From Pigmentiphaga kullae (GTDB lineage Bacteria; Pseudomonadota; Gammaproteobacteria; Burkholderiales; Burkholderiaceae_B): 64,000 bases of DNA. The stretch is taken from positions 1 to 64,000 of the forward strand of contig NZ_SGXC01000003.1 of assembly GCF_004216695.1 (NCBI RefSeq). Reading direction: 5' to 3'. Positions within the stretch are counted from its first letter, which is position 1. Each line of letters starts with the position of its first letter. This document shows positions 3,455-27,208 of this stretch, piece after piece. The translations under genes were made by a program, and so were the position numbers. Below the pieces are notes generated by a model. It did no database searches, was not told the origin of the DNA, and saw only the letters and a program-made list of their open reading frames with translations.

Positions 3455-3460
3455 TATCAT
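3455..3460 (+). promoter_or_regulatory. possible -10 element (TATCAT) for the yqjD-like operon
   Basis: TATCAT lies 43 bases before the ATG at 3503. The matching -35 position (TTCCGG, 17 bases upstream) is poor. Weak call, kept because a 130-base gap separates this operon from dacB. Confidence 0.3.
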
Positions 3461-3502
3461 CGGATCGTCCAATCGTAAAAACAACGCAGGGAGCGCAACA
3501 CG

Positions 3503-3814: not shown

Positions 3815-3824
3815 TACGCGCAGC

Positions 3825-4238
3825 GTGTCCGCGTCGCCGCATCTGCTGAGTTCGCTCCGGGCGCTGGCTGCCACTTCCATCGGCATCCTGCGTACCCGGC
3901 TGGAACTCGTCGCCATCGAACTGGCCGAGGAAAAGTCGCGCCTGCTGGGCATGGTGCTGGTCGCCCTGGCGGCCCTGCTGTGCCTGACGCTCGGCCTGAT
4001 GATGTTCTCGTTCCTGATCGTCGTGCTGTTCTGGGATACCGAATACCGGCATCTGGCCATCGCGCTGGTCGGGGCGGCCTATCTGCTGGTGGGCCTCATC
4101 ATGCTGATCATGGTGCGGCGGCAGGCCGTGCATGCGCCGCTGGTGTTCGAGGACACCCTGGCCGAACTCGAACGCGACCGCGACATGCTCGCCGCGGTGG
4201 CCGAGTCCGAACCCGACAGCCGCCGGGGGCCGCGATGA
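3825..4238 (+). CDS. yqjE: YqjE-like phage-holin-family membrane protein
   Basis: 137-residue protein starting at GTG 3825, ten bases after the yqjD stop. It has a short basic N-terminal helix, then two transmembrane segments (about residues 43-70 and 80-103), and a charged C-terminal tail. This matches the YqjE / putative actinobacterial-type holin family (Pfam Phage_holin_3-like); no lytic function is known or implied. It overlaps the next gene by four bases (ATGA), indicating translational coupling. Confidence 0.75.
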   Translation: MSASPHLLSSLRALAATSIGILRTRLELVAIELAEEKSRLLGMVLVALAALLCLTLGLMMFSFLIVVLFWDTEYRHLAIALVGAAYLLVGLIMLIMVRRQAVHAPLVFEDTLAELERDRDMLAAVAESEPDSRRGPR

Positions 4239-4615
4239 CCGGGCGGCGCAGGGCGCGCGAGGCAGGCGATATCGAGGCCCGCAAGGAATTGCTGCTGGCC
4301 CGTTCGTCCATCGAGCGGATGGAGCTGGCCGCCCACCTGCACCAGATCAAGGAAGCCGTCACGCCGGGACAAGTACTCAAGTCGGTCCTGCCCAGCCTGG
4401 GCGGCAGCCGCGGCATGGCGACCGCCATGCAGGCCTGGCGCTTCCTCAGGCGCTATCCCATCGTGTCGTCTGCGGCGTCGATGGTGCTGGCCCGCGTGCG
4501 GCTGGGCGGCGTATTCCGGCTGTTGAAGCTGGGTGGCGGCGCGGTGGCCGCCTACCAGGCCTACAAGCTGTGGCGGGCCATCAAGGAAGACCGCAGCCGG
4601 CCGGACCCGCGCTAG
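4235..4615 (+). CDS. YqjK-like small hydrophobic-tailed protein
   Basis: 126-residue basic protein encoded by the third gene of the yqjD-yqjE set; its ATG overlaps the yqjE stop (ATGA at 4235-4238). The N-terminal half is helical and charged, the middle (SSAASMVLARVRLGGVFRLL) and C-terminal part (GGGAVAAYQAYKLWRAI) are amphipathic or weakly hydrophobic. Function is unknown. The YqjK assignment rests mainly on gene order; sequence similarity to the enteric protein is not evident by eye. Confidence 0.65.
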   Translation: MTGRRRAREAGDIEARKELLLARSSIERMELAAHLHQIKEAVTPGQVLKSVLPSLGGSRGMATAMQAWRFLRRYPIVSSAASMVLARVRLGGVFRLLKLGGGAVAAYQAYKLWRAIKEDRSRPDPR

Positions 4616-4623
4616 CGTCATCG

Positions 4624-4645
4624 GGCCCCGGTGTCAGCCGGGGCC
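4624..4645. terminator. bidirectional hairpin between converging genes
   Basis: A perfect 8-bp stem (GGCCCCGG / CCGGGGCC) with a six-base loop TGTCAG lies in the 37-base gap between the yqjK-like stop and the ubiD stop. There is no U-tract on either side, so intrinsic termination would be weak; it may act with Rho or as a 3'-end stabiliser. Confidence 0.5.
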
Positions 4646-4652
4646 GCCGGAT

Positions 4653-6194
4653 TCAGCCCGGCAAGCCCAGTTCCCGCCACAGGCCGTCCACCCGTTTCTT
4701 CACGTCCGCGTCCATCACGATGGGGCGTCCCCATTCCCGATCGGTCTCGCCCGGCCACTTGTTGGTGGCGTCCAGGCCCATCTTGCCGCCCAGGCCCGAG
4801 ACCGGCGACGCGAAGTCCAGGTAGTCGATGGGCGTGCGGTCGGCCAGCAGGGTATCGCGGACGGGGTCCATCCGCGTCGTGATGGCCCAGATCACCTCCT
4901 GCCAGTTGCGCACGTCGATGTCCTCGTCCACCACCACGATGAACTTGGTGTACATGAACTGGCGCAGCACGCTCCAGATGCCGAACATCACGCGCTTGGC
5001 GTGTCCGGGATACTGCTTGCGCATCGAGACGATGGCCAGGCGGTAGCTGCATCCCTCGGGTGGCAGGTAGAAATCGACGATTTCCGGCAGTTGCCGGCGC
5101 AGCAGGGGGGTGAAGACCTCGTTCAGGGCGACGCCCAGGACGGCGGGCTCGTCGGGCGGCTTGCCCGTGTAGGTGGAGTGGTAGATGGGGTCGCGCCGCA
5201 TGGTAATGCGGTCGACGGTGAAGACCGGGAACCAGTCCTGCTCGTTGTAGTACCCGGTGTGGTCGCCGTAGGGGCCTTCCAGCGCCATCTCGTAGCCGTT
5301 GTCGGGCGGGGCCGCGATCCCGGGGGCGTTGGCGCGCGGATCGGAGGCCGGCAGCAGGTGGCCCTCCAGCACGATTTCGGCCGAGGCGGGCACGGACAGC
5401 GCGCTGCCCAGGCAGCGGACCACCTCGGTGCGGCCGCCGCGCAGCAGGCCGGCGAACTGGTATTCGGACAGGGCGTCGGGCACCGGCGTCACGGCGCCCA
5501 GGATGGTGGCGGGGTCGGCGCCCAGCGCGACTGCGACCGGGAAGGGCTGCCCGGGATGGGCCAGCATGTGTTCGCGGAAGTCCAGCGCGCCGCCCCGGTG
5601 CGACAGCCACCGCATGATGAGCTTGTTGCGCCCGATGGGCTGCTGGCGATAGATGCCCAGGTTCTGGCGCTTGCGGTTCGGTCCGCGCGTGACGACCAGT
5701 CCCCAGGACAGCAGCGGGGCGACGTCGCCGGGCCAGCAGTGCTGGATCGGCAGGCGCCCGAGGTCGACGTCGTCGCCTTCGAGCACGATCTCCTGGCAGG
5801 GCGCGCTCCGGACCTCGCGCGGTGCCATGTCCCACAGGGCGGATTTCAGCATCGCCACCTTGCCGAGCGCATCGCGCAGGCCGCGCGGCGGCTCGGGTTC
5901 GCGCAGCGAGGCCAGCAGCTCGCCCACGTCGCGCAGGGCGCCCATGTCTTCCGCGCCCATGCCCAGCGCGACCCGCTGGGCAGTGCCGAACAGGTTGGCC
6001 AGCACCGGCATGTCGGCCTTGTCGCGGCCGGGCTGCCGGGCGTTCTCGAACAGCAGGGCCGGCCCGCCGGCGCGCAGTACGCGGTCGCAGATCTCGGTGA
6101 TCTCGAGGTGGGTCGACACGGCGGTCGGGATGCGCTTGAGCTCGCCCCGCGCTTCGAGTTGGCGCAGGAAATCTCGGAGGTCGCGGTATTTCAC
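4653..6194 (-). CDS. ubiD: UbiD family decarboxylase (3-octaprenyl-4-hydroxybenzoate carboxy-lyase)
   Basis: 513-residue enzyme matching UbiD along its whole length, from [20 protein letters not shown] to the C-terminal Asp/Lys-rich [16 protein letters not shown]. UbiD removes the ring carboxylate of the octaprenyl-hydroxybenzoate intermediate of ubiquinone synthesis, using prenylated FMN made by UbiX. Conserved UbiD stretches seen include [12 protein letters not shown] and [17 protein letters not shown]. No ubiX lies in the window. The gene stands alone, converging with the yqjDEK set, with a long AT-rich gap upstream. Confidence 0.92.
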
Positions 6195-6473
6195 GGGCGG
6201 AGCACCTTGATGGGGGAAGCCGGAAGAGGGGCCACTTTAACCCGCCGTCGCGGTCGCGGCGTTCGGCGCACCGATCCCGTCATCGGGGCCGTGATGACAT
6301 GAAACATGACGGTCGGGACAAATTTTACATATGTTTCTGAATCTGATTCGATCTTGCTGATAGTGTATGCTTACTTTTATCTATCTTTCCATATACGGTC
6401 GCATGGGTATCGATAGAAAATCACAATGATCGCGGATGTCCTTGCCCTGCACCAAAATGGTGATTTTTTACGG
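6195..6473. other. AT-rich intergenic stretch upstream of the structured leader
   Basis: First part of a 630-bp gap, and the most AT-rich stretch noted in the window (from about 6300). It contains no convincing coding frame. A small hairpin CACC-AAAAT-GGTG (6451-6463) followed by a run of T (weak terminator), and a longer dyad AAAATCAC (6418-6425) / GTGATTTT (6461-6468), were seen. The base composition suggests a regulatory region for divergent ubiD and the downstream leader, or a recently acquired piece; I cannot tell which. Confidence 0.4.
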
Positions 6474-6502
6474 TTGACCTGGCCGGATCGCATTTCTACA
6501 AT
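6474..6502 (+). promoter_or_regulatory. sigma70 promoter, TTGACC-N17-TACAAT
   Basis: TTGACC (6474-6479) and TACAAT (6497-6502) are separated by exactly 17 bases, five of six consensus bases in each box. Transcription would start near 6509, giving a leader of about 315 bases before the transglycosylase ATG at 6825. This is the best sigma70 promoter I noticed in the window. Confidence 0.75.
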
Positions 6503-6508
6503 CCGCCA

Positions 6509-6797
6509 ACTTTCAGCGTGTGCCCGGTGCCGTCGTCCTGACAGCCGCCCCCGAGTCGGGGCCGGACAAGACCACCGGGCTGCTTAACGGGCCATCGGGC
6601 GCCCACCATACTGGAGTTCTCTTAGCGGCGCGAACGCGCCCTCTGCCCGAAACAGGCATGGTCCCGAGCTATCTCTGCGATAGCGATCATGCAGGTGTGC
6701 CGCCAGTCGTCCTGACAGCGGCGCGATGTGCAGCCAAGCAGGTTGTGGCCTCGATGTCCGGAGTCGTATCTCGATCGCTTCCGGATGCGGTTTTTTT
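6509..6797 (+). ncRNA. candidate structured leader RNA or independent small RNA, family not recognised
   Basis: The stretch between the 6474-6502 promoter and a T7 run at 6791-6797 has no convincing reading frame but many short hairpins: CCCC-GAGTC-GGGG near 6545, GGCGCG-AA-CGCGCC near 6629, GCTATC-TCTGC-GATAGC at 6668-6684. The 14-base sequence GTCGTCCTGACAGC occurs twice, at 6532-6545 and 6706-6719, each preceded by a similar GTGTGCC-rich segment, suggesting two related substructures. The 3' end has TCCGGA (6757-6762) able to pair with TCCGGA (6780-6785), then T7: terminator-like. It does not match 6S, tmRNA, RNase P, SRP or the common riboswitches I know. It could be an sRNA that ends before the gene, or an attenuator. 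Confidence 0.5.
6757..6797 (+). terminator. intrinsic terminator or attenuator ahead of the transglycosylase gene
   Basis: Inverted pair TCCGGA (6757-6762) and TCCGGA (6780-6785), extended by G-U pairs, with a 17-base loop, then ATGCGG and seven T (6791-6797). It lies about 28 bases upstream of the ATG at 6825, between the promoter and the gene, so it either ends a separate small RNA or controls read-through into the gene. The stem is short. Confidence 0.5.
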
Positions 6798-14506: not shown

Positions 14507-15433
14507 CTATCCCTGCCGGACGCGGCGCCGGTATTCCGAGGGAGACAGGCCGAAGCGCTGGTGGAACCGGCGGGTGAAATAGGCCTCGTCGCTGAAGCCG
14601 ACGCCATTGGCGATTTCGAAGATGCGGTCTTCGCTGTGGGCAAGCAGATCCTGGGCGCGGTCCATCCGCTTGACCGTCACCCAGTCGACGAAGGCCAGCC
14701 CCGTGTGTTTCTTCAACAGCTGCGACAGGTAATTGGGCGACAGGAACGCCGCCTCGGCCACGCTGTACAGGGACAACGGCTTGTCCAGGTTCTCGTCGAT
14801 GTGGCGTATCGCGCGTTTCAGCGCGTCGGTGCGGCCTTGCAGGTAGATGCGGCGTTCGGTCAGACCGCGCAGTTCCGACTCGAAGCGTTCGGTGGTGAAG
14901 CCGATCAACTCCAGCAGCGTGCCGCGTATGCGTTCCAGCGTGCCGAGCCGGCGCCTGTGGTTGAGCGCGGTCATGTGGCGCAGCAAGCCCTGGATGTGGG
15001 CGAATTCCTCGTCGTCGAACTCGAAGTCGATGTGTCCTTCGTACAGGAAGGGCGCCAGTTCGGGGTAGTCCGTCAGCGAGACCTCCTCCATCTCCAGCGG
15101 CGACAGGTCGAAGTCGCGCCGCAGGAAGTTGGTGGCGAAGTTGATGATGGTGTAGCTGGGCTCGCAGGGGTTGTAGGCGCAGTGCACGCGATAGGGCAGC
15201 ACGAAGATCAGCGACCGCGCGCGGTACTGGCGGCGCTGGCCGCTGATGACCTGGCTGGCGCCGCCCGTGGCGTTGACCTGGATCTGGAAGAACTCGTGGC
15301 GGTGCGGCGTGGAGACCGCGGGCCGGACCGTGTGGTCCCGGATGTCGAAGTCCAGGCGTTCGGACCGCTCGACCATGCGGTAAGTCTTGATCGACGGATC
15401 GTCGATCCGGATGCCCACGGCGTCGCTGTGCAT
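14507..15433 (-). CDS. AraC/XylS family transcriptional regulator
   Basis: 308-residue regulator: an N-terminal cupin-like sensor (about 30-120, with HRHEFFQIQVNATGGASQ), a helical linker, and a C-terminal double helix-turn-helix (about 205-305; SVAEAAFLSPNYLSQLLKKH for the first, FEIANGVGFSDEAYFTRRFH for the second). The ending FGLSPSEYRRR is the AraC family signature. It is the last gene of the minus-strand catabolic cluster, 53 bases downstream of the CBS gene, and is the obvious candidate activator of that cluster, responding to its substrate. Ligand unknown. Confidence 0.9.
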   Translation of the reverse strand: MHSDAVGIRIDDPSIKTYRMVERSERLDFDIRDHTVRPAVSTPHRHEFFQIQVNATGGASQVISGQRRQYRARSLIFVLPYRVHCAYNPCEPSYTIINFATNFLRRDFDLSPLEMEEVSLTDYPELAPFLYEGHIDFEFDDEEFAHIQGLLRHMTALNHRRRLGTLERIRGTLLELIGFTTERFESELRGLTERRIYLQGRTDALKRAIRHIDENLDKPLSLYSVAEAAFLSPNYLSQLLKKHTGLAFVDWVTVKRMDRAQDLLAHSEDRIFEIANGVGFSDEAYFTRRFHQRFGLSPSEYRRRVRQG

Positions 15434-15486
15434 GGCGCCTCTTGTCTCCCATGGTGGTGCCAGCGGCGGCTGGCGCGGCCGTGGCC

Positions 15487-15963
15487 CTATCTGACGGCGT
15501 GTTCCGGCGCCGGCCAGTCGCCGATGTAGGACATCAGCATGCGGTTCTCGAAGCTCTGCTGTTCATGGACCGCCTTGGCGACATCATGGAACGAAACCAC
15601 GCCTTGCAGCAAGCCTCGGGCCACGACCGGGATGTAGGACTGGTGGTGCGACACCATCAGCGAGCGCAGCACGTGCAGGTCCATGTCGGGCTGGGCGACG
15701 ATGGGCTCGGGATTCATCACGTGCGACACCCGCAGCTCGGCTACGGGCGGGGTCGGCCCCTGCCGCAGTTCCTTCTGGCGCCGGGCCAGCACGCGTATCA
15801 CTTCGCTGAAGGTCAGCAGGCCAGCCAGGATGTGGCGGTCCATGACGACCAGCGAGCCGATGTCCTGGTCGGCCATGGTGATGACGCATTCGGACAGGGG
15901 CGTGTCCGGCGCCACCGTGTACAGCGCCTTGTCCTGGATCCTGAGTATGTCGCTGACTCGCAT
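15487..15963 (-). CDS. two-CBS-domain protein
   Basis: 158-residue soluble protein consisting of a CBS pair (about 8-65 and 80-140; VSDILRIQDKALYTVAPDTP and VSHVMNPEPIVAQPDMDLHV open the two repeats). CBS pairs bind adenosine nucleotides (AMP, ATP, SAM) or sometimes NAD and report energy state; no effector domain is attached. It lies 21 bases after the dehydratase stop within the catabolic cluster, where a nucleotide-sensing accessory protein is unusual. The exact role is unknown. Confidence 0.85.
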   Translation of the reverse strand: MRVSDILRIQDKALYTVAPDTPLSECVITMADQDIGSLVVMDRHILAGLLTFSEVIRVLARRQKELRQGPTPPVAELRVSHVMNPEPIVAQPDMDLHVLRSLMVSHHQSYIPVVARGLLQGVVSFHDVAKAVHEQQSFENRMLMSYIGDWPAPEHAVR

Positions 15964-15984
15964 TGCATTCTCCCTGTAGCGTCT

Positions 15985-17706
15985 TCACGGTCTTGGCCCG
16001 GGTGGCGTGCCAAGCAGGAAATCGAAGTCGCAGCCGCCATCGGCCTGCAGCACGTGCTGCTGGTAGAGGCGGGCATAGCCGCGTTCGGCCCGCGGCGGCG
16101 CCGCCGGCGATTCGGCGCGCCGCTGCGCCAGCTCCGTTTCGGGCACCAGCAGGTCGATGCGGCGGTCCCTGACGCTCAGGCGTATGCGGTCGCCGTCGCG
16201 GATCAATCCGATGGGGCCGCCCGCGGCGGCCTCGGGCGCGACGTGAAGCACGATGGTGCCGTAGGCGGTGCCGCTCATGCGGGCGTCCGAGATGCGGACC
16301 ATGTCCTTGACGCCGCGCGCGGCCAGCTTCCTCGGGATGGGCAGGTAGCCGGCCTCGGGCATGCCGCTGCCGCTGGTGGGGCCGGCGTTCTGCAGCACCA
16401 GGAAATCGTCGGCCTCCACGTCCAGCCCGGGGTCGTCGATGCGGCGCGACAAGTCCTCCAGCGACGTGAAGACGACCGCCCGGCCTTCTTTCTCGAACAG
16501 CGCCTTGTCGGCGGCCGAGCGTTTCAGGATGGCGCCGCGCGGCGCCAGCGAGCCGAACAGCGCCACCAGTCCGCCCACCGGTTCGACCGGGTCGCTGGCG
16601 CGCTTGACCACGGTATGGTCCACCCAGGCTTCGCGTTCGGCCTCCAGGCGCTCGCCCAGCGTCTCGCCGGTAACGGTCAGGGCGTCCAGGTGCAGGGTGG
16701 GCGCCAGTTCCCGCAGCACGGCGGACAGGCCGCCGGCGGCGTAGAAGTCTTCCATGTAGTGGTCGCCCGTGGGTTTCAGGTTGACCAGCACCGGCGTGGT
16801 GTCGGACCACGCGTTCAGTTTCTCCAGCGACACGGGGATGCCCAGCCGGCCGGCGATGGCCGTCAGGTGGATGATCGCGTTGGTCGAGCCGCCCAGCGCG
16901 AGCAATACGCGCACCGCGTTCTCCACCGACTTGGGCGTGATGACCTGGCTCGGCCGTATCGGCTGGTGGATGAGACGGACGGCCAGCGCACCGCTGGCTT
17001 CGGCGGCGCGCAGCCGGTCCGCGTGCACGGCGGGAATGGCGGCGGTGCCCGGCAGCGACATGCCCAGCGCCTCGGCGATGCAGGCCATGGTGCTGGCGGT
17101 GCCCATGACCGCGCAGGTGCCGGCGGTGGTGGCCAGCCGGCCTTCGACCTGGCCGATTTCCGGGCCGGCGATGTCGCCCGCCCGGTAGCGGGCCCAGAAG
17201 CGTCGGCAGTCGGTGCAGGCACCCAGCTTCTCGCCCTTGTGGCGGCCAGTCATCATGGGGCCGGTCACCAGCTGCACCGCGGGCACGTCGGCCGCCGCGG
17301 CGCCCATCAGCTGGGCGGGTACCGTCTTGTCGCAGCCGCCGATCAGCACCACCGAATCCATGGGCTGGGCTCGCACCATCTCTTCCACGTCCATGCTCAT
17401 CAGGTTGCGGAACATCAGTGAAGTCGGACTCAGGAACACTTCTCCCAGCGAGATGGTGGGAAAGTCGATGGGCAGGCCGCCCGCAGCGAGCACGCCGCGC
17501 TTGACCGCCTCGACCAGCTCCGGCATGCCGCGGTGGCAGTTGTTGAAACCCGAGCCGCTCGAGGCGATGCCCACCACCGGCCGCCCCAGCATCCCGGTGG
17601 AATAGCCCATCGACCTGGCGAAGGACCGGCGCAGGTACATGGCGAAGCCGAAGTCGCCGTAGTTGGTCAGGCCGCGCGCCAGTCCGTGTTCCTGTTGTTC
17701 GTCCAT
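15985..17706 (-). CDS. IlvD/Edd family dehydratase (sugar-acid or dihydroxy-acid dehydratase)
   Basis: 573-residue iron-sulfur dehydratase. Candidate cluster cysteines are Cys57 (NNCHRGM), Cys125 (GGCDKT) and Cys198 (GTCAVMG), the pattern of the [2Fe-2S] branch that includes L-arabonate, D-xylonate and dihydroxy-acid dehydratases. The reaction is elimination of water from a 2,3-dihydroxy acid to a 2-keto-3-deoxy acid. The gene's place beside aldehyde dehydrogenases and away from ilv genes points to sugar-acid or polyol catabolism, not branched-chain synthesis. The substrate cannot be fixed from sequence. It lies 27 bases after the aldehyde dehydrogenase stop. Confidence 0.88.
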   Translation of the reverse strand: MDEQQEHGLARGLTNYGDFGFAMYLRRSFARSMGYSTGMLGRPVVGIASSGSGFNNCHRGMPELVEAVKRGVLAAGGLPIDFPTISLGEVFLSPTSLMFRNLMSMDVEEMVRAQPMDSVVLIGGCDKTVPAQLMGAAAADVPAVQLVTGPMMTGRHKGEKLGACTDCRRFWARYRAGDIAGPEIGQVEGRLATTAGTCAVMGTASTMACIAEALGMSLPGTAAIPAVHADRLRAAEASGALAVRLIHQPIRPSQVITPKSVENAVRVLLALGGSTNAIIHLTAIAGRLGIPVSLEKLNAWSDTTPVLVNLKPTGDHYMEDFYAAGGLSAVLRELAPTLHLDALTVTGETLGERLEAEREAWVDHTVVKRASDPVEPVGGLVALFGSLAPRGAILKRSAADKALFEKEGRAVVFTSLEDLSRRIDDPGLDVEADDFLVLQNAGPTSGSGMPEAGYLPIPRKLAARGVKDMVRISDARMSGTAYGTIVLHVAPEAAAGGPIGLIRDGDRIRLSVRDRRIDLLVPETELAQRRAESPAAPPRAERGYARLYQQHVLQADGGCDFDFLLGTPPGPRP

Positions 17707-17733
17707 GTTCTCGTTCCGTCGGGTGGCGCCGCG

Positions 17734-19185
17734 TCAGATGCGCGTGCGGATCAGCTTGGGTTGCAGGTAGTCGTGGATGCCGAGCGAGCCGCCTTCCCGG
17801 CCCATGCCGCTTTCCTTGATGCCGCCGAAGGGCGCTTCGGCGCAGGCCAGCAGCACTTCGTTGATGCCGACCATGCCGCACTCCAGCGCCTCGGCCGCGC
17901 GCGTGGCGGTGCCGAGCGCGTTGGAGAACACGTAGCCGGCCAGCCCGAAGGGCAGGGCATTGGCGCGTGCGATGGCGTCCTCGAAGCGCGAGAAGGGCGC
18001 CAGCGGCGCCACGGGCACGAAGGGCTCCTCGTTCATGATGGCCGCGTCGGCGGGGACGTCGGCCAGCACCGTGGGTTCGAAGAAGTAGCCGCGCGGCAGG
18101 GTGGCCGGCCGCCTGCCTCCCGTCAGCAGCCGTGCGCCGCGGGCCACGGCGTCGTCCACCAACGATCGGGCGTGCGCGAGGCCACGCGCGTTTGCCAGCG
18201 GGCCCATGTCGCTGTCGGCGGCCGATCCGGGCCTGAGCGAGCGCGCCACGCCGGCGAAGGCGTCGCAGAAGGCCGGATAGATGGCCTCGTGCACGAAGAA
18301 GCGCGACGGCGAGATGCAGACCTGGCCGCAATTGCGGAACTTGGCGCGAGCCAGCGCGGTGGCGGCGGCGATCGGGTCGGCATCCTCGAAAACCAGCGCC
18401 GGCGCGTGGCCGCCCAGTTCCATCGAGACCTTCTTGATGCCGGCGGCGGCGTGGCCTAGCAGGCGACGTCCCACGTCGACCGACCCCGTCAGCGACACCT
18501 TGCGCACCAGCGGCGATTCGATCAGGTGCCTGGAGATCAGTCCGGAGTCCCCGGTGACGAGATTGACCGCGCCGCGCGCCACGCCGGCGTCGTGGCAGGC
18601 CTGTACCAGGGCCATGCACGAGCCGGGCGCCTCGCTGGCCGGCTTGATCACCACCGAGCAGCCGGCGGCCAGCGCGGCGGCCAGCTTGCGCGCCGGCAGC
18701 AGCGCGGGGAAGTTCCAGGCCGAGAAGGCCGCCACCACGCCGACCGGTTCGAAGCGGACCGTCATCCGCACGTCCGGTGTGCGTCCTTCTATCGTCTGGC
18801 CGTAGATGCGCTTGGTTTCTTCCGCGTACCACTCGAACTGGTCGGCCGCCGCCTGGGTCTCGCCGCGGGCCTCGGCCAGCGGCTTGCCGGTTTCGCGCGC
18901 CATCAGCCGGGCAATGGCGTCCTCGCGCGCACGGATCAGGTCCGCCGCGCGCCGCAGGGCCGCGCTGCGCGCCCAGGGCGATTCCTGGCGCCATCGCGCC
19001 AGTCCGTCGCGGGCGCTGGCCAGCGCCGCGTCGAGGTCGGCCGGCGTCGCCACGGGCACGAAGCCGATGATCTCCTCGGTGGCCGGGTCGAACACCTCGC
19101 GCGCGGCCAGGTCGCGCGCCGCCAGCCATTCGCCGTCGATGTACAGGCCGTATTCCTGGTACAGGCCGAATTGTTCGCGCTTCAT
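17734..19185 (-). CDS. NAD(P)-dependent aldehyde dehydrogenase, succinate-semialdehyde dehydrogenase type
   Basis: 483-residue class I aldehyde dehydrogenase. Catalytic residues are present: Asn158 (SAWNFP), general base Glu257 (MELGGHAP) and nucleophile Cys290 (NCGQVCISPS). The sequence resembles GabD/YneI-type succinate-semialdehyde and 2-ketoglutarate-semialdehyde dehydrogenases, which finish non-phosphorylative sugar-acid pathways. Between the ThDP enzyme and the IlvD/Edd dehydratase it most likely oxidises the aldehyde produced in that pathway to an acid. Only nine bases separate it from the preceding gene. Confidence 0.88.
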   Translation of the reverse strand: MKREQFGLYQEYGLYIDGEWLAARDLAAREVFDPATEEIIGFVPVATPADLDAALASARDGLARWRQESPWARSAALRRAADLIRAREDAIARLMARETGKPLAEARGETQAAADQFEWYAEETKRIYGQTIEGRTPDVRMTVRFEPVGVVAAFSAWNFPALLPARKLAAALAAGCSVVIKPASEAPGSCMALVQACHDAGVARGAVNLVTGDSGLISRHLIESPLVRKVSLTGSVDVGRRLLGHAAAGIKKVSMELGGHAPALVFEDADPIAAATALARAKFRNCGQVCISPSRFFVHEAIYPAFCDAFAGVARSLRPGSAADSDMGPLANARGLAHARSLVDDAVARGARLLTGGRRPATLPRGYFFEPTVLADVPADAAIMNEEPFVPVAPLAPFSRFEDAIARANALPFGLAGYVFSNALGTATRAAEALECGMVGINEVLLACAEAPFGGIKESGMGREGGSLGIHDYLQPKLIRTRI

Positions 19186-19194
19186 GTGTGTTCC

Positions 19195-21105
19195 TCAGAT
19201 GTCCATGGATCGATAACGCCGCTGCACCTGCTCGCACCAGTTGCCGACGTTCCACGAGCCGTAGGCCCCCAGGCCGCCCCGCTCGTCGCTGCCAGCGTAG
19301 ACCGGCACGTGCACCACCGACAGCCCCTGGTGGGCATGCGCCTCGCGCAGCGCCTGCTGCAGGCTCCTGGCGGTATGGCCGCCCCAGACGGCGTTCACGC
19401 CGCGTACGGCCCGCGCCATGGCCACGTAGTCCACCGCCACGCCGTCGCTGGTGCGGAAGTCGACGCCGTACTGTGCGTGCTGCAGGCTGGAGATCGCGGC
19501 CATCCGCCGGTTGTCGAAGATCACGATCATGCCGCTGGCGCCGTGCTCGACCGCGCTGATCAACGCCTGCGGATTCATCATGAACGAGCCGTCTCCGGTG
19601 AACGCGACGGCATAGCGCGGCCGGGCGGCCAGGCCCGAGGCCACCACGGCGCAGGTGGCGAAGCCCATGTACGAGGCGCCTGACTCGGTGTAGGTCTGGA
19701 AGGGCGTGTCGTCCTCCACCGTCTGGAAGCCATTGGCCTGGACGTCGCCGGCGTCGAACAGCTTGACGGCGTCGATGTCCCGGGCGAAGTCGGCGACGAT
19801 CTTGATCGCCTCGGGCTGGGTCAGCACGATGCCGTTCCAGACCTCGTCGCGGAGCCCGCCCAGGTTCTGCCGCGACGCCAGGAAGTCCTTCCAGGCGCGT
19901 TTGGCGGCGGCGCATTCGTCCAGCCAGTCCTGCCGGCCGAGCGAGGTGTCGCGCACGACCACCAGCGCCGACAGCAACTGCTCCAGTACGGCGCCGATGT
20001 CGCCGTGGAGCCCCAGCGTGCGGTTGTAGTGCGCCACGTCGTCCAGATCGCCGTTGATGTTGATCACCGCGCGCGCCCGCGGATAACCGGTACCCGAGCA
20101 GTCCGACTGGCACACCGCGCGCGAGCCGATCACCACCAGCAGTTCGGCGTGTTCCATCGCATGGTTGCCGCTGATCGATCCTTTCGATCCGCCCACGTGC
20201 ATGTTCTGCGGATGGGCGTCGGGCAGCACGCCGGTCGAGCCGGGAGACAGCACCGCCACCGCGCCGGTGGCCTCCACCAGCCGGCGTACCGCCGCCGCAT
20301 GGGCCCGCGCGCCGCCGCCCGCCTTGACGACGATGCGGTCGTATTTGCGCAGCAGCACCGCGGCTTCCTCGATCGCCTCGTGGTCGGCCACCGCCTGCCG
20401 CGCCACCCGCAGGCGTTCGGGCAGGGCCACCAGGTTGAGCTGCTCGATGCGCTGCGGCTGGGTGTTCAGCGGCAGCAGGAGATAAAACGGGCCCGGCTTG
20501 ACCGGATGGTGGACGCGCCGCGTGCCGCGCCGCAGGGCATCGCGCAGCGCCTCGGGCGTGTGCAGCACGTAGGAATCCCCCATCAGGGCCGTCATCTGCC
20601 CATAGACGTGCTGTACGGGGCGGGGTACCTGCTGCATGTTGTAGCCTTCGCCGTGGGTCGTCTCGTCGCCGTAGACGTGGTAGAGCCCGACGCCGTTCGA
20701 GGCGGCCGCCAGCGAGCCCGCCATGGCCTGCAGCGCGCCCGGGCCGATGGAGGTTACGACCACGCAGGTCTCGCCGTGGATCCAGGCCAGCGCGGTGCCG
20801 GCATGGGCCATCTCGACCTCGTTGCGGAAGTTGAATACCCGCGTCACGCCGGCCTCGGTATAGACGCGCAGGACCTCGCCTAGGTCGGTGGAGCCGTGGC
20901 CGAAGATCGCCAGGTACTTGCTTACGCCCTGCCGTAGCAGCCCCAGCACCAGGGCTTCCGACAGCGAGACCGAGACGCGCTGGCTCAGGAGGCCATGCTC
21001 GAGCGCCTCCTGCAGGCCGCCGGCGCGGGCGATGGCGGCCGCGCGGGCCTGCATGCCCGCGGCGTCCGGCAACTGGGTCCTGGGCAGATCCACCGTTTGA
21101 TTCAT
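19195..21105 (-). CDS. thiamine-diphosphate-dependent enzyme, acetolactate synthase/IolD-like
   Basis: 636-residue ThDP enzyme. The N-terminal half has the ThDP-activating glutamate in FNFRNEVEMAHAGTALAW and the loop TSIGPGALQAMAGSLAAASN; the C-terminal half has the GDG-N cofactor motif (FTGDGSFMMNP ... VIFDN). The FGHGSTDLGEV and GPGA segments recall IolD, the hydrolase of the inositol pathway that cleaves a cyclic dione, more than true acetolactate synthase, and there is no regulatory-subunit gene. It may decarboxylate a 2-keto acid or hydrolyse a diketone. ATG 21105 was chosen for the GGGAGC site upstream; the frame is open far upstream through the Bug gene. Confidence 0.8.
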   Translation of the reverse strand: MNQTVDLPRTQLPDAAGMQARAAAIARAGGLQEALEHGLLSQRVSVSLSEALVLGLLRQGVSKYLAIFGHGSTDLGEVLRVYTEAGVTRVFNFRNEVEMAHAGTALAWIHGETCVVVTSIGPGALQAMAGSLAAASNGVGLYHVYGDETTHGEGYNMQQVPRPVQHVYGQMTALMGDSYVLHTPEALRDALRRGTRRVHHPVKPGPFYLLLPLNTQPQRIEQLNLVALPERLRVARQAVADHEAIEEAAVLLRKYDRIVVKAGGGARAHAAAVRRLVEATGAVAVLSPGSTGVLPDAHPQNMHVGGSKGSISGNHAMEHAELLVVIGSRAVCQSDCSGTGYPRARAVININGDLDDVAHYNRTLGLHGDIGAVLEQLLSALVVVRDTSLGRQDWLDECAAAKRAWKDFLASRQNLGGLRDEVWNGIVLTQPEAIKIVADFARDIDAVKLFDAGDVQANGFQTVEDDTPFQTYTESGASYMGFATCAVVASGLAARPRYAVAFTGDGSFMMNPQALISAVEHGASGMIVIFDNRRMAAISSLQHAQYGVDFRTSDGVAVDYVAMARAVRGVNAVWGGHTARSLQQALREAHAHQGLSVVHVPVYAGSDERGGLGAYGSWNVGNWCEQVQRRYRSMDI

Positions 21106-21143
21106 GTCGTGCTCCCGTGCGGCCGCCGCGCGGCGGCCGGTGT

Positions 21144-22142
21144 TCAGAACTTCGCCTGCTGCTCCGGCGCCTTGCGCAGCCCCACGTCGGTCATCAGCTT
21201 GGCCAGCAGCACGTCCTCGGTGGCGATGGTGTGACCGAAATCCGGCGCCGACTGGAAGGCCGGCACGAAGCCCAGCTTTTCCCCCTGGGTCTTGAACTCG
21301 GCGCTCTCCACGGTCTTGTGCACGGCCGCTTCCAGCCGCGCCACCACGGGCGCCGGCGTGCCCTTGGGCACCGCGATGCCGCGCCACATGTCGGCCTGGA
21401 AGTCGAAGCCCTGTTCCCGGGCGGTCGGGACGTCGGGGAAGGCCGGCTCCCGGTTCGAGCCCATCACGCCCAGGACCTTCAGCGTGCCGGCCTTCACGTG
21501 CGCGGTCAGCGCGCCCGGAAGCTGCACCAGCGCGTCGATGTGGCCGCCTATCAGGCTGGTGACCACCTGGGACGCGCCGAAGGCGACGTGGGTCACCTCG
21601 GCCCGCGTCTCGTGGAAGAAGGCCACCGCGGAGGTGTGGGTGTGGCTGCCGAAGCCGGAGTTGCCGAGCCGGATCTCCCCGGGCCGCTTCTTCGCGTCCG
21701 CGACCAGGTCGCGCAGCGAGTTCCACGGCGCGTCGGCCTTCACCGCCACCACGGGCAGTTCGACCGAGACCCGGGCCACCGGGTCGAAGGCCTTGTAGTC
21801 GAACGGCACCAGTCCCTGGTAGTAGGCGGTGGAGATGGAGTTCGAGTTGAAGACGATCGAGTAGCCGTCGGGCTTGCGGCCCTGCACGTACTTGTAGCCG
21901 ATGGCGCTGCCGGCGCCGGGCCGGTTCATGACCGTGACGGGCTGGCCGAGCTGGCGCGACATGCCGTCGGCCAGGACTCGGGCCACCACGTCGGCGGACG
22001 AGCCGGCGGGAAAGGGTACGGTCATCTCGACGGGCTTGTTCGGAAACTCGTCGGCCGTGGCGGGCGCCGCATGGGCGATGGCCAGGGCCGACATACCGAT
22101 GGCGCACAGCCATCCCTTCGCTGTCTGCCTGCGAACGTTCAT
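21144..22142 (-). CDS. Bug-type (tripartite tricarboxylate transporter) periplasmic receptor
   Basis: 332-residue exported solute-binding protein with a signal peptide ending near ATADE (residue about 30), the family opening FPNKPVEMTVPFPAGSSADV and the GPG-like loop VMNRPGAGSAIG. Bug proteins bind small organic acids or related solutes in the periplasm and normally serve a TctA/TctB membrane pair; none is encoded nearby, as is common in Bordetella. Its place inside the catabolic cluster suggests it binds the cluster's substrate. Confidence 0.88.
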   Translation of the reverse strand: MNVRRQTAKGWLCAIGMSALAIAHAAPATADEFPNKPVEMTVPFPAGSSADVVARVLADGMSRQLGQPVTVMNRPGAGSAIGYKYVQGRKPDGYSIVFNSNSISTAYYQGLVPFDYKAFDPVARVSVELPVVAVKADAPWNSLRDLVADAKKRPGEIRLGNSGFGSHTHTSAVAFFHETRAEVTHVAFGASQVVTSLIGGHIDALVQLPGALTAHVKAGTLKVLGVMGSNREPAFPDVPTAREQGFDFQADMWRGIAVPKGTPAPVVARLEAAVHKTVESAEFKTQGEKLGFVPAFQSAPDFGHTIATEDVLLAKLMTDVGLRKAPEQQAKF

Positions 22143-22226
22143 GGTCGTCTCCTACCTCTGTTTGACCGCCGGGGCCGTCCGCGTCGTTGGCGTGTAGCGG
22201 CTAGGGGCGGTAAGTCGGGAAATGAG

Positions 22227-23246
22227 TCATGCCACCTTGCGTTGCTCCCTGGGTTGCACGGCCCGCTTCAGGCGCAGGGCCTCCAGCACGCGCTCGGGCG
22301 TGGCGGGAAGGTGCGTCATGCGTACTCCCACTGCATCGTGGATCGCGTTCACGATCGCCGGCGCGGTCGGGATCAGGCATGGTTCGCCGATGCCCTTGAC
22401 GCCCAGGGGCGTCTTGGGGTCGGGTTCGTCGATCAGCACTGACGTGACATGGGGCACGTCCAGCGTGGTCGGCAGGATGTACTTGGCGAGTCCGGGCGTG
22501 GTGGTGTGGCCGGCGGCCTGGCTATAGGCCTCCATCAGCGCGTGGCCCACGCCCATGACCACGCCGCCCTCGATCTGGCCCTCGACCTGCTGCGGATTGA
22601 TCACCCGCCCCACGTCGTGGGCCGCCCAGACGCCCAGCACCTGCACCTCGCCGGTGTCGGTGTCCACCTCGACCTCGGCGATCTGCGCGCCGAACACATA
22701 GCTCTGCCATGGCGTCGCGGCGCCGGTCTCGGGGTCGAGCGCGGTGTGCTCCGAGGTGAACAGCCCGCTGCCCACGATGACGATGCCGCGGTCCTTCTTC
22801 AGGACGTGCACCGCATGTTCCATGCTCATGCGCCGGCTGGGCGAGCCCGCGACCCAGACCTCGCCGGCGCGGGCGCGGATGGACGTGGGGCTGACCTGCC
22901 AGAGGTCGGCCATGGCCGCGGCGAACTTGCCGAAGGCCTCGCGGCAGGCCAGCGCCACCGCGTTGCCTATCATGTAGGTCATGCGCGTGGCGCCGGCGTG
23001 GGCGGCCTCGGGCACGCGCGCCGTGTCGTTGTCGGCCAGCACCACGTCCTGCGGGCGCACGCCGGTTTCCTCGGCGGCGATCTGGCACAGCCCGGTCAGC
23101 ACGCCTTCGCCGATCTCTGTCACGCCGGTGGCCACCTTCAGCGTCCCGCCGTCGTCGATCTCAACCCAGACGGCGGCCCGATCCATGGCGGCGGTGCGGG
23201 CGATGCCGTACCAGCCGCAAGCCATTCCCCGGCCTCGTTTCTTCAT
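22227..23246 (-). CDS. molybdopterin-binding subunit, C-terminal half, of a xanthine-dehydrogenase-family hydroxylase
   Basis: 339-residue protein corresponding to the second half of a CoxL/XdhB-type molybdenum subunit; it starts MKKRGRGMACGWYG, where normal proteins continue from the first half. The catalytic glutamate is Glu288 in GVKGIGEPCLIPTAP, and the cofactor segment EGQIEGGVVMGVGHAL is present. Its ATG overlaps the stop of the preceding ORF by four bases (ATGA, 23243-23246), with AAGGAG seven bases upstream, so it looks like a true, translationally coupled gene and not the remnant of a frameshift. It must pair with the upstream protein to form one active site. Confidence 0.85.
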   Translation of the reverse strand: MKKRGRGMACGWYGIARTAAMDRAAVWVEIDDGGTLKVATGVTEIGEGVLTGLCQIAAEETGVRPQDVVLADNDTARVPEAAHAGATRMTYMIGNAVALACREAFGKFAAAMADLWQVSPTSIRARAGEVWVAGSPSRRMSMEHAVHVLKKDRGIVIVGSGLFTSEHTALDPETGAATPWQSYVFGAQIAEVEVDTDTGEVQVLGVWAAHDVGRVINPQQVEGQIEGGVVMGVGHALMEAYSQAAGHTTTPGLAKYILPTTLDVPHVTSVLIDEPDPKTPLGVKGIGEPCLIPTAPAIVNAIHDAVGVRMTHLPATPERVLEALRLKRAVQPREQRKVA

Positions 23247-25150
23247 GTCGTCTCCTTGTCGGTGGCCATCGCGCCCAGGCCCGGCGTGCAGGGCGCGCGG
23301 GTGCCGGGGCCGCCCAGGTCGATGCGCGCGGGCTCGCCCCGGGCTTGCCGGTGCGGCACGCCCGGATCCCAGCGCGCGGCCGCCAGCGCGGCGTCCAGGC
23401 AGGCGGTGGCCGCCACGCGGTCCAGCTGCTGCCGGGTGTGGGTGGTCGCGCCGTCCTGCATGAGGTTGAGGCGCCGCAATTGCGCCGGGTCCATGCCCAG
23501 CCGTTCCGCGCACAGATCCAGGTGGGACTCGGTGGCGAACTCGGACTGGAACGCGCCGAAGGCCCGGAACGCACCGCTGGGCGTGTTGTTCGTGTAGACG
23601 CCGATGGCATCGACCCAGACGTTGGGAATGGCGTAGGGGCCGGGTCCCAGGATGGCGGACTTGTTCATGACGCCCGGCGTCGACATGGCGTAGGCACCGC
23701 CGTCCGACACCATGATCATCCGGGTGGCGACGATGAGCCCGCCGCGCGTCAGGCCCATGGTGTAGTCGATGCTGAACGGATGCCGCTTGGCGCTGGCGGC
23801 GATGCTTTCCTCGCGGGTGAACACGTAGCGCACCGGCCGGCGCGTGCGGATGGCGGCCAGCGCCAGCATGCCCTGGTACAGCATGTCCTCCTTGCCGCCG
23901 AAGCCGCCGCCCACGGTGCTCATGATCATGCGCACCTTGTTGATGGGCCGGTCCAGGATCCTGGCCAGCATGTGGCGATGGTGGGTGATGTTCTGGCTGG
24001 GCGACATCACGGTGACGCAGCCGTCGGGCTCCAGGTAGGCCAGTCCCGCCTCGGGCTCCAGGTAGGCGTGTTCCAGGGCCGAGGTGCGGTAGGTTTCCTG
24101 GACCACCAGATCGGCCGCGCGCAGGCCCGCGTCGACGTCGCCCTTGCGTATGCGCGTGTGCTTGCAGAGGTTGCCGGGCGCGAAGTCGTGCAGTTGCGGG
24201 GCGCCTTCCTTCATGGCCTCGAACGGGTCGAACACGCCCGGCAGGAGGTCGTAGGTCACGCGGATCCGCTTCACGGCCTCGCGCGCGATGTCGGCGGTCT
24301 CGGCCACCACGGCGGCGACGCCTTCTCCCACGTAGCGGACCACGCCGCGCGCCATGATGGGCTGGTCCTCGATGAAGACGCCGAAGTTGTCGATGCCGGG
24401 CACGTCGTCGCAGGTCAGCACGCATTCCACGCCGGGCATGGCGCGCGCCTCGCTCACGTCCAGCCGCTGGATGCGGGCGTGGGGGTGCGGGCTGCGCAGC
24501 ACCTGCATGTGCAGCATGTTGGGCATCCACAGGTCGGCCGCGTACTTGATGGCGCCCGTGACCTTGGCCGGCGCGTCCAGCCGGCGGGTGCGCGAGCCGA
24601 TGAAGCTGTCGGTGGCGGCTTCTTCCAGGTCTGTTTCCGGGCGCGTGCCGTTCAGCACGTCGCGGGCCATGGCCACGGCGTCCAGGATCTTCTGGTAGCC
24701 GGTGCAGCGGCAGATGTTGCCGCCCAGTCCTTCCTTGATTTCGTCCAGGCTGGCCTCGGGTCGCTTGCGCAGGGTGGCCGTGGCCGCCATCACCATGCCG
24801 GGAATGCAGTAGCCGCACTGGCTGGCGCCGCATTTGTGAAAGGCCCGCTGGATTACGGTCATGCCCTGGTCGGCGTCCAGGTCGTCCACCGTTTCCACGG
24901 TCTTGCCGTGGATCTTCTGCACGGGGGCGAGGCAGCTCTTGATCAGCGTGCCGTCGACGAACATCGAACACGTGCCGCATTCGCCCGCGCCGCAGCCTTC
25001 CTTGTTGCCCGTCAGCTTCAGTTCCTCGCGGATGAAATCGATCACGCGATAGTGGATGGGGACCGTGCGCGTCACCCGGCGGCCGTTGACGGTCGCGACG
25101 ATGCGCGTCGTGGGCGGCTGGACGGCATCGAAGCCCGATGGATCAGGCAT
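23243..25150 (-). CDS. fused [2Fe-2S] subunit + N-terminal half of molybdopterin subunit, xanthine-dehydrogenase family
   Basis: 635-residue fusion. Residues 15-165 form the two-cluster iron-sulfur domain with Cys53, 58, 61, 73 (plant-type cluster) and Cys112, 115, 147, 149 (second cluster). Residues about 185-590 are the first half of the molybdenum subunit, including the GGGFGGKED motif and FRAFGAFQSEF near the cofactor. The protein then ends after a Pro/Gly-rich tail (TDKETT) and the remaining half is a separate ORF. The enzyme should hydroxylate an aldehyde or N-heterocycle, passing electrons Mo to Fe-S to FAD. Start ATG 25150 overlaps the FAD-subunit stop by eight bases. Confidence 0.87.
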   Translation of the reverse strand: MPDPSGFDAVQPPTTRIVATVNGRRVTRTVPIHYRVIDFIREELKLTGNKEGCGAGECGTCSMFVDGTLIKSCLAPVQKIHGKTVETVDDLDADQGMTVIQRAFHKCGASQCGYCIPGMVMAATATLRKRPEASLDEIKEGLGGNICRCTGYQKILDAVAMARDVLNGTRPETDLEEAATDSFIGSRTRRLDAPAKVTGAIKYAADLWMPNMLHMQVLRSPHPHARIQRLDVSEARAMPGVECVLTCDDVPGIDNFGVFIEDQPIMARGVVRYVGEGVAAVVAETADIAREAVKRIRVTYDLLPGVFDPFEAMKEGAPQLHDFAPGNLCKHTRIRKGDVDAGLRAADLVVQETYRTSALEHAYLEPEAGLAYLEPDGCVTVMSPSQNITHHRHMLARILDRPINKVRMIMSTVGGGFGGKEDMLYQGMLALAAIRTRRPVRYVFTREESIAASAKRHPFSIDYTMGLTRGGLIVATRMIMVSDGGAYAMSTPGVMNKSAILGPGPYAIPNVWVDAIGVYTNNTPSGAFRAFGAFQSEFATESHLDLCAERLGMDPAQLRRLNLMQDGATTHTRQQLDRVAATACLDAALAAARWDPGVPHRQARGEPARIDLGGPGTRAPCTPGLGAMATDKETT

Positions 25151-26054
25151 GGACGGTCTCCCTGGGCAGGCGCTGCACGGCCAGGCCGCATTGCGCCAGC
25201 GCGGCGACCAGGCCGCGCTCGACGAAATTCACCAGCACTTCGCGGCGGTAGTCCTGGCGGCTGCGCGAACGCACGCGGTCGGCGGCAAGTTCGGCCGCCT
25301 CGCGGATCGTGGCGGGTGTCGGGCGTCGGCCGCGTAGGGCCGCTTCGGCGTCGTCCAGCCGTTCGGGCACCGGGCCGACCGCGCCGATCGCGATGCGCAC
25401 GTCGGCCAGCGTCCCGCCGGCCGGGGCGAGCCGGACCAGCGCCGCCAGGCAGACGGTGGAGATCACCAGCGAGCGGCGATGCCCGACTTTCTCGAAGGCG
25501 CCGCCATGGCCGGGCACGGCGTCGCAGTCGATGCGCACCAGGATCTCGCCGGCGCCCAGCCGGGTCCGGCCCGGCCCGGTAATGAAATCCGCCAGCGGCA
25601 TCGTCCGTTCGTGGATGCCGGCACCGTCGCGGCGGGCAAGCACCACCTGGGCGTTCATGGCCAGCAGCGCCGGCAGCGTGTCGCCGGCCGGCGAGGCGTT
25701 GACCAGATTACCGCCCAGGGTGGCCTGCTCGCGGATCTGGTCGTCGGCGAACCAGGCCGCGCATCGCGCCAGCAGGCCCGCGTCGCGCAGCAGCAGGGGA
25801 TGGCGTTCACAGGCCGCGATGGAGGTGGCGGCGCCGATGCGCAGACGGCCTCCCTCGGCCGTGATGGCGGTCAGCGTCGGGATCGCGCCGACGTCGACCA
25901 GCGCCGGCAGGTGGACGTCGCCGGCGCGGCCTTCGCGCGCCCATGGCAGCAGGTCGGTGGCCCCGGCCACCAGGCGCGCCCCGGGCGAGGCATCCAGGGC
26001 GTCGAAGGCCTCGTCCAGGGTCGCCGCCGTCACGTAGCGATCGAAGGTCAGCAT
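25143..26054 (-). CDS. FAD-binding subunit of the molybdenum hydroxylase (CoxM/XdhB-like)
   Basis: 303-residue FAD subunit. The PCMH fold motifs are clear: GARLVAGATDLLPW (about 30) and the FAD pyrophosphate loop ATLGGNLVNASPAGDTLPAL (about 115-134). It links the iron-sulfur subunit to NAD or another acceptor. ATG 26054 was chosen; the gene is preceded by 11 bases after the alcohol dehydrogenase stop and overlaps the next gene by eight bases, so all three hydroxylase polypeptides are made from one operon in order FAD, Fe-S/Mo-N, Mo-C. Confidence 0.88.
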   Translation of the reverse strand: MLTFDRYVTAATLDEAFDALDASPGARLVAGATDLLPWAREGRAGDVHLPALVDVGAIPTLTAITAEGGRLRIGAATSIAACERHPLLLRDAGLLARCAAWFADDQIREQATLGGNLVNASPAGDTLPALLAMNAQVVLARRDGAGIHERTMPLADFITGPGRTRLGAGEILVRIDCDAVPGHGGAFEKVGHRRSLVISTVCLAALVRLAPAGGTLADVRIAIGAVGPVPERLDDAEAALRGRRPTPATIREAAELAADRVRSRSRQDYRREVLVNFVERGLVAALAQCGLAVQRLPRETVHA

Positions 26055-26065
26055 CGCCGGCTCCG

Positions 26066-27208
26066 TCAGGCCGCCTGCCGGTTCATCTTCACCACGACCT
26101 TGATGGCGTCGTCGATGCGCTCGCGCGCATAGCGCAGCGCCGTCGGCACTTCTTCCAGCGGGAAGGTGTGGGTGTGGATGATCTTGGCGTTGAAGCGCTT
26201 CTGCGCCATCAGAGACGCGGCTCGGTGGGTGGCGCTGCGGCCTTCGCCGCGGATGCCGAACAGATAGATGTTGTTGCGCACCAGCGCGGCGACGTCGATG
26301 GGGACCGGCTCGGCCGGAAACGCCGCCAGGCAGATCCGGCCGCCGCGCCGGAGCATGGCCGCGGCGTCGTTGACGGCGTTGGGCGCGCCCGAGCATTCCA
26401 GCACGTAGTGCGCGCCGCCCTGGGTGTATTCCTTGACCTTCGCCACCGCGTCCTCGTTGCGCACGTTGACGACGTGGTCGGCGCCCAGTTGGCGGCCGAT
26501 CTCCAGGCGGTTGTCGCGGGTGCCGGTCAGGATCACTTCCCCGGCTCCCAGCGCCTTGGCCACCGCCACGCCCAGGAGACCGATGGGGCCCGGCCCCATG
26601 ACGACCACGGACTGTCCGGCCACCAGGCCGGCGGTCACGTCCAGGCCGTACATGGCGGTGCCGGCCGTCACGATCAGCGTGGCTTCCTCGTCGCTCATGT
26701 CGTCCGGCACGTGGGCCAGCGTGTTCACGTTGTTGACGGCGTACTGGGCGAAGCCGCCGTCGGTGGTGAAACCATTGGCGCGATGGCCCTTGTTCACGTC
26801 GCCGTAGTTCAGGCCGTAGTTCAGGCAGGACGTGTACATGCCCTCGCGGCAGCGTTCGCAGCGGCCGCAGCCGGCGTGGACCTCGACCGCCACCCGGTCG
26901 CCCAGCCTGAACTCGTCCACCCCGGGGCCCAGCTTCACGACCGTGCCCATGTACTCGTGGCCGGGCGTGAAATTCTTGTTGAACGGCAGGCCGCCCTGGA
27001 TGAGCGCGGGCGGGCCGCGATGGATGATCTCCAGGTCGGTGGCGCACACGGCGATCGCGTCGATCCGCACCAGCACCTCGGCCACGCCGGGCTGGGGCAC
27101 GGGCTTTTCCACGAAGGACAACTGGTCGGGATCGTCCAGCACCCAGGCCTTCATGGTCTGCGGAATCTGGGCGGCATGCTTGAACGCGGTTTCGGTAACG
27201 GTGTTCAT
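26066..27208 (-). CDS. zinc-dependent alcohol dehydrogenase (MDR family)
   Basis: 380-residue medium-chain dehydrogenase. Catalytic zinc ligands Cys55, His84 and Glu85 (AVCATDLE, TPGHEYMG) and the structural zinc set Cys114, 117, 120, 128 (CGRCERCREGMYTSC) are intact, and GPGPIGLLGVAVAKALGA is the NAD(P)-binding loop. The fold resembles sorbitol/threonine dehydrogenases acting on polyols or secondary alcohols. It is the first gene of the minus-strand cluster, behind a candidate promoter at 27248-27275, and probably performs the first oxidation of the pathway (inference). Confidence 0.88.
   Translation of the reverse strand: MNTVTETAFKHAAQIPQTMKAWVLDDPDQLSFVEKPVPQPGVAEVLVRIDAIAVCATDLEIIHRGPPALIQGGLPFNKNFTPGHEYMGTVVKLGPGVDEFRLGDRVAVEVHAGCGRCERCREGMYTSCLNYGLNYGDVNKGHRANGFTTDGGFAQYAVNNVNTLAHVPDDMSDEEATLIVTAGTAMYGLDVTAGLVAGQSVVVMGPGPIGLLGVAVAKALGAGEVILTGTRDNRLEIGRQLGADHVVNVRNEDAVAKVKEYTQGGAHYVLECSGAPNAVNDAAAMLRRGGRICLAAFPAEPVPIDVAALVRNNIYLFGIRGEGRSATHRAASLMAQKRFNAKIIHTHTFPLEEVPTALRYARERIDDAIKVVVKMNRQAA

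Follow-up and report, generated by a model that had tools for sequence, protein, structure and literature searches.

Closest described systems

The nicotinate dehydrogenase of Eubacterium barkeri (NdhFSLM; PDB 3HRD) has a molybdenum (Mo) subunit that is split into two chains, as follows from two papers (PMC5746545, PMC10331938) and from the PDB chain names. According to PMC5746545 this enzyme contains selenium, and PMC8305194 treats its AFRGFG motif as an active-site loop. Here we describe, by computational analysis, a related pair of open reading frames (ORFs) in Pigmentiphaga kullae, together with the conservation of its split, the position of the cut and the operon around it. The pair, ORF1 and ORF2, lies in the first 64,000 nucleotides (nt) of contig NZ_SGXC01000003.1 (assembly GCF_004216695.1), and this whole stretch is called the window below. 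Very probably the window encodes a molybdenum hydroxylase of a three-chain kind, composed of a flavin adenine dinucleotide (FAD) subunit, the fused 2Fe-2S/NdhL-like ORF1 and the NdhM-like ORF2, in which the split is real and conserved and which serves a catabolic operon. The features concerned are the following:

23243-25150, minus strand: ORF1, 635 amino acids (aa), two 2Fe-2S domains joined to an NdhL-like Mo-subunit half (hammerhead and MoCoBD_1)
22227-23246, minus strand: ORF2, 339 aa, NdhM-like Mo-subunit half (MoCoBD_2, catalytic Glu288)
23243-23371, minus strand: conserved tail that ends ORF1 (residues 594-635; the coordinates take in the stop codon)
23243-23246, minus strand: 4 nt (ATGA) shared by the stop of ORF1 and the start of ORF2
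23252-23257, minus strand: AAGGAG, a hexamer that resembles a ribosome-binding site and precedes the ATG of ORF2 by 5 nt
25143-26054, minus strand: FAD subunit (FAD_binding_5, CO_deh_flav_C), 8-nt overlap with the ORF1 start (scanned as 25143-26060, with the ATG at 26054 taken from the translation)

By sequence, the best PDB matches of the two ORFs are the two halves of the E. barkeri Mo subunit: residues 184-578 of ORF1 align with residues 8-400 of NdhL (3HRD_A; E 1.1e-94), and the ORF2 profile aligns over positions 1-327 with residues 1-328 of NdhM (3HRD_B; E 1e-85), so that residue 1 of ORF2 falls on residue 1 of NdhM. Thus the window resembles NdhFSLM in that the Mo subunit is cut between both cofactor-binding domains with the same start residue of the second chain, and in that the FAD subunit is a separate chain. 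It differs in that the iron-sulfur (Fe-S) subunit of NdhFSLM is a chain of its own (3HRD_D), while in the window it is joined to the NdhL-like half, and in that this half carries a longer conserved tail in ORF1. Besides, the genes of the window operon that were scanned or annotated match families other than those of nicotinate dehydrogenase. A function as nicotinate dehydrogenase finds no support in the neighbour genes scanned.

When the structure model of ORF1 was searched with Foldseek, MOP of two Desulfovibrio species (1SIJ, 1DGJ) took ranks 1-2 and 3HRD_A rank 3 (TM score 0.89 by target length, 40% identity). Like MOP and the single-chain FeS-Mo proteins of Sulfitobacter (L015) and Sagittula (L014) plasmids, the window enzyme has its Fe-S domains ahead of its Mo domains, whereas those proteins run as one chain across both Mo domains. 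The Mo subunit is also found in two ORFs, cut at the same linker, in Salinigranum rubrum (L111), Nonomuraea gerenzanensis (L109) and genome G061 (L103). Identity to ORF1/ORF2 over the Mo domains is 34-42% for L103 and L109; L111 shows 37% identity to ORF1. Unlike the window, L111 has its Fe-S subunit annotated as a separate gene, and the Fe-S match of L109 lies in a different ORF from the Mo half. In the haloarchaeon S. rubrum the two annotated Mo genes (L111, 3496-5875) overlap by 8 nt and the Fe-S gene stands apart; the split Mo ORFs lie at 3270-5912 on the plus strand in L109, and at 3836-5305 and 5197-6720 on the minus strand in L103 (reverse-complement coordinates).

The cut itself is hence of a known, recurring kind, and the NdhL/NdhM precedent limits the novelty of the locus. 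The locus stands apart through its tail, its catabolic operon context and the joining of the Fe-S part with the NdhL-like half. No description of an Fe-S-fused split Mo subunit, or of the window operon, was found in the literature searched.

Domain layout of the two ORFs

It turned out that the complete domain set of the xanthine oxidase family (2Fe-2S, FAD, hammerhead and two Mo-cofactor-binding domains) is present above the Pfam cut-offs, and the enzyme is a molybdenum hydroxylase of this family. ORF1 contains Fer2, Fer2_2, Ald_Xan_dh_C and MoCoBD_1 (residues 321-563), and ORF2 contains MoCoBD_2 (residues 2-265); a second, weaker Fer2_3 match stays under its own Pfam cut-off. Since Fer2 and Fer2_2 sit in ORF1, there is no separate small Fe-S subunit of the NdhS type, and the single polypeptide across both Mo domains that characterizes MOP is absent from the window but present in nine of 79 related loci. 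The original prediction, made from the letters of the window, had placed the Fe-S domain in one frame with the first Mo half up to a stop at 23243, and both the Pfam domains and the coordinates agree with this. Its further statements hold as well: ORF2 starts at an ATG overlapping that stop with AAGGAG ahead, and GGGFGGKED lies on ORF1 whereas GIGEP with Glu288 lies on ORF2, where Glu288 of this GxGEP motif aligns to the GEP of 3HRD_B. The alignment with 3HRD places the cut between MoCoBD_1 and MoCoBD_2, exactly where NdhM starts.

Within its own genome, the window copy is the shortest open frame among 16 MoCoBD_1 matches (661 aa, against 721-1335 aa). Across 31 genomes surveyed there are 57 MoCoBD_1 matches, 16 of them from the window genome; three of the other 41 are in frames below 700 aa, and two of these three lie at most 430 nt from a contig start.

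Conservation and distribution of the split

To collect relatives, species genomes were scanned with four aligned ORF2 proteins as the query, which gave 80 loci (60-97% identical), the best 80 of 125 relatives matching two peptide patterns. After removal of the window genus, a twin and one distant match, 78 of these together with a Phaeobacter locus made up 79 loci with both halves, whose ORF2 is 60-83% identical to that of the window. Among them 69 are split, nine are fused and one (L056) has a disturbed frame. The loci examined span alphaproteobacteria, betaproteobacteria, SAR11 and SAR324. In two congeners (G166 and G190) the 4-nt overlap is identical and the tail nearly so, and a complete Phaeobacter piscinae plasmid carries the split too, with the halves annotated as separate genes of the same operon. 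The same split, which the original prediction had suggested looking for in related genomes, is thus found both inside the genus and far beyond it.

These counts bear on the simplest explanation of the gene pair, namely that a single-chain FeS-Mo gene has been broken by a fresh mutation, or only seems broken through a frameshift made in sequencing or assembly. Nine of the 79 relatives do have a single frame, and one locus from a metagenome-assembled genome (MAG), L056, looks frame-disturbed. Against this, 69 loci are split in many assemblies, isolates and the complete plasmid included, the frame of the tail is conserved towards the stop, a Shine-Dalgarno-like site precedes ORF2, and ORF2 starts where NdhM starts. 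We rejected the error on the conservation of the split and give it almost no credence. A genuine split is preferred because it recurs in many independent assemblies, because the tail is under purifying selection and because the cut is that of NdhL/NdhM, and the earlier argument against a simple sequencing frameshift is borne out on these three grounds.

In the Afifella MAG locus L056, the frame of ORF1 is disturbed ahead of the conserved tail, which is encoded in a different frame; this is perhaps an assembly error or a pseudogene. In a record titled Singulisphaera sp. MAG (L023), ORF2 is 82% identical to that of the window, and ORF1 shares its last 45 residues with the ORF1 of the Comamonadaceae MAG L026; because of this identity and this shared C-terminus, the L023 contig may be a binning contaminant.

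The nine fused members (L033, L042, L043, L044, L046, L047, L055, L058 and L063) are one chain, with the tail as linker and, where the flank is present, with the same kind of neighbourhood as the window. Eight of them measure 954-981 aa from the match start, while L042 is cut by a contig end. Relatives with one uninterrupted frame had been named beforehand as what would speak against a real split. Such relatives do occur in these nine loci, yet they are nested among split lineages. Since they exist, two chains would seem to be dispensable for function.

The trait is widely scattered and patchy rather than common. At E <= 1e-60, ORF2 was matched in four of 250 genomes of the taxonomic family (the window genome, two of ten other congeners, and G061 at 39% identity), and at E <= 1e-70 in four of 398 genomes of the phylum (the window genome, G568 and two distant matches).

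The junction and its translation signals

The stop and start form ATGA in the window, and TGATG/TAATG or a short gap in relatives. An overlapping ORF2 ATG is available in 55 of the 69 split loci (at -4 nt in 28, -1 nt in 24 and -11 nt in 3; where several ATGs fitted at one locus, the most upstream was counted), while the remaining 14 have a gap of 1-19 nt and no overlapping ATG was found in them. A Shine-Dalgarno-like 4-mer precedes an ORF2 ATG in 64 of 69 split loci, compared with 442 of 2537 ATGs within ORF1, a comparison that is somewhat generous to ORF2, for which several candidate ATGs per locus could count.

The overlap of the frames at the junction would also suit programmed frameshifting, by which the halves would be joined in the cell and some full-length chain made. 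However, the distance from the ORF1 stop to the ORF2 ATG is -11, -4 or -1 nt or falls between +1 and +19 nt, so no single shift fits the family, and the 14 loci without an overlapping ATG do not fit it either. With the spacing so variable, this explanation was rejected, and we hold it to be very improbable; two separately translated chains remain the preferred reading.

The C-terminal tail of ORF1

The original prediction had noted a tail of about 35 residues and called it non-homologous. The extra residues are real, but the label is wrong: the tail is specific to the family and conserved in 76 members. Five residues, W594, G597, R609, D611 and R618, do not vary across the alignment of these 76. 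Three further columns have C, L and G as their consensus (89, 92 and 93%); the window reads C621, P623 and G624 there, and so departs from the L. At its start the second half has an RGxG motif, and the stretch between the W594 position and the R of this motif is 40-62 residues long in 67 split and 41-45 in nine fused members. The same interval measures 3-24 residues in 12 outgroup proteins, of which the eight single chains have 10-22; the minimum of 3 comes from 3HRD and is too low, since its chain A was represented by residues 8-400 only. Fused members retain the tail motif as an internal linker, L033 least well.

The ratio of nonsynonymous to synonymous change (dN/dS) of the tail is 0.03-0.44 in the 15 of 16 close-relative pairs with a finite ratio, which indicates that the tail is translated and under purifying selection, though less strictly than the body. 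In the structure model of ORF1 (mean pLDDT confidence 83), the blocks 591-600, 601-610 and 611-620 have confidences of 84, 80 and 72 and no regular structure, and residues 623-635 fall below 50. In the model of the fused relative L043, the junction residue 621 closes a low-confidence stretch (610-621). The alignments for these models drew on parts of the set (A3, 90 rows; A4, 41 rows).

Evolutionary history of the split

A quick maximum-likelihood tree (LG+G4, short search) was built from 88 rows after removal of the columns that cover the junction and the tail. It leaves out L010, L020, L023, L045, L056, L071, L094 and L100 (duplicate, short or frame-disturbed) as well as L101, whose genome enters as L104; L012 was replaced by L103, and L032 and L102 had no usable match pair, the genome of L102 entering as L105. 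The 76 family members, 67 split and nine fused rows, form one clade (SH-aLRT 100). The fused rows appear in four places: L033 among betaproteobacteria, L043 with L044, L046 and L063, L042 by itself, and L047 with L055 and L058. Split lineages surround them on the tree, so they look like secondary re-fusions. By parsimony a split ancestor costs four changes and a fused ancestor six. Most likely, as far as this tree goes, the split is ancestral for the enzyme family, and we infer about four re-fusions from the split ancestor, with the caution that all nine fused loci come from MAGs. The ancestral state is less sure because 3HRD, a set of seven single-chain FeS-Mo proteins and the window enzyme family meet in an open fork with long branches.

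Alternatively, the family began with a one-chain FeS-Mo ancestor, fission took place on two or more occasions and the fused members are survivors. One of the two nearest outgroup branches consists of the seven single-chain FeS-Mo proteins (the other being 3HRD), and a fused ancestor costs only two extra changes. On the other side, fission alone would require 14 events, and the fused linkers with their tail motif are much longer than those of the outgroup single chains, as if a tailed ORF1 had joined ORF2, although an ancestral insert would look alike. We regard repeated fission as unlikely, though clearly more plausible than either frameshift explanation, and keep to a split ancestor.

Going further, the continuity of the chain around the active site may be switchable in evolution. 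Within one conserved operon, the enzyme family would have been split ahead of the divergence between its alpha- and betaproteobacterial copies, and no fewer than four re-joinings would have followed. The family-specific tail motif (W..G ... R.D ... R..C.LG) would have been kept throughout and would serve as a novel element for docking or assembly that links the Fe-S/NdhL-like chain with the NdhM-like chain. We offer this as a tentative idea that could well prove wrong.

Proposed mechanism

ORF2 is probably translated directly after ORF1 through the overlapping stop and start, and such coupled translation would yield near-equal amounts of both halves. The two proteins could then close around the pterin-molybdenum cofactor, with ORF1 contributing GGGFGGKED and the AFRAFG loop and ORF2 contributing Glu288. 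By homology with 3HRD, one active site would thus be built from two chains. Electrons would pass from Mo to the two 2Fe-2S clusters in ORF1, then to the FAD subunit and on to an acceptor, and the enzyme would carry out one step of the conserved catabolic operon.

Several points weigh against this picture of a three-chain enzyme with a real and ancient split. Nine relatives are a single chain. The sample of the best 80 of 125 relatives leans towards close ones. Five of the 69 split loci show no Shine-Dalgarno-like 4-mer at the tested spacing. In all 16 close-relative pairs the amino-acid change per site is higher in the tail than in the body, that is, the tail is less constrained. Besides, the tree is a quick one with long outgroup branches, the margin between the ancestral states is just four against six changes, and the splits of 3HRD and of the window family may be independent.

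The operon and its possible substrate

The other genes of the operon are listed below:

26066-27208, minus strand: zinc-dependent dehydrogenase, distantly Tdh/IolM-like
21144-22142, minus strand: TctC-type solute receptor of a tripartite tricarboxylate transporter
19195-21105, minus strand: thiamine-diphosphate enzyme, distantly IolD-like (start set at the ATG of MNQTVDLPR; scanned as 19195-21078)
17734-19185, minus strand: succinate-semialdehyde-type aldehyde dehydrogenase
15985-17706, minus strand: IlvD/Edd dehydratase, sugar-acid type
14507-15433, minus strand: AraC-type regulator

We counted same-strand matches at the loci with enough flank. Upstream, the FAD subunit was found in 72 of 72 (with a query carrying two extra residues) and the zinc dehydrogenase in 65 of 65. 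Downstream, TctC was found in 68 of 72, the thiamine-diphosphate enzyme in 58 of 60, the aldehyde dehydrogenase in 43 of 57 and IlvD/Edd in 35 of 55, the last two perhaps undercounted, as the flank ends at 7 kb. The minus-strand operon (14507-27208) is kept wholly or largely in SAR11 HIMB114, Polynucleobacter, Aurantimonas, Roseibium and others. In Phaeobacter (L013, 20016-20771) a gene for the alpha subunit of an NAD(P) transhydrogenase follows the IlvD gene, and matches to it also occur in L024 and L026.

An assignment of the thiamine-diphosphate enzyme as IolD was rejected (160 bits against an NCBIfam cut-off of 715), and so was that of the dehydrogenase as IolM (202 bits against 450). The thiamine-diphosphate enzyme weakly matches cyclohexane-1,2-dione hydrolase (49 bits), while the IlvD/Edd dehydratase strongly matches L-arabinonate dehydratase (503 bits). 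The matches of the dehydrogenase, the thiamine-diphosphate enzyme, the aldehyde dehydrogenase and IlvD/Edd hint at a polyhydroxylated substrate, either cyclic or an acid, and this substrate class is a guess.

In conclusion, a gene pair that resembles a frameshift is a genuine conserved arrangement, and the NdhL/NdhM type of split is extended from a clostridial enzyme to a family that occurs patchily in marine, freshwater and other proteobacteria. The pair marks an operon that occurs in SAR11 and Rhodobacterales, its substrate class being a guess. Besides, the matched split and fused natural versions in one operon offer a test of how gene fission affects the assembly of a cofactor between two chains.

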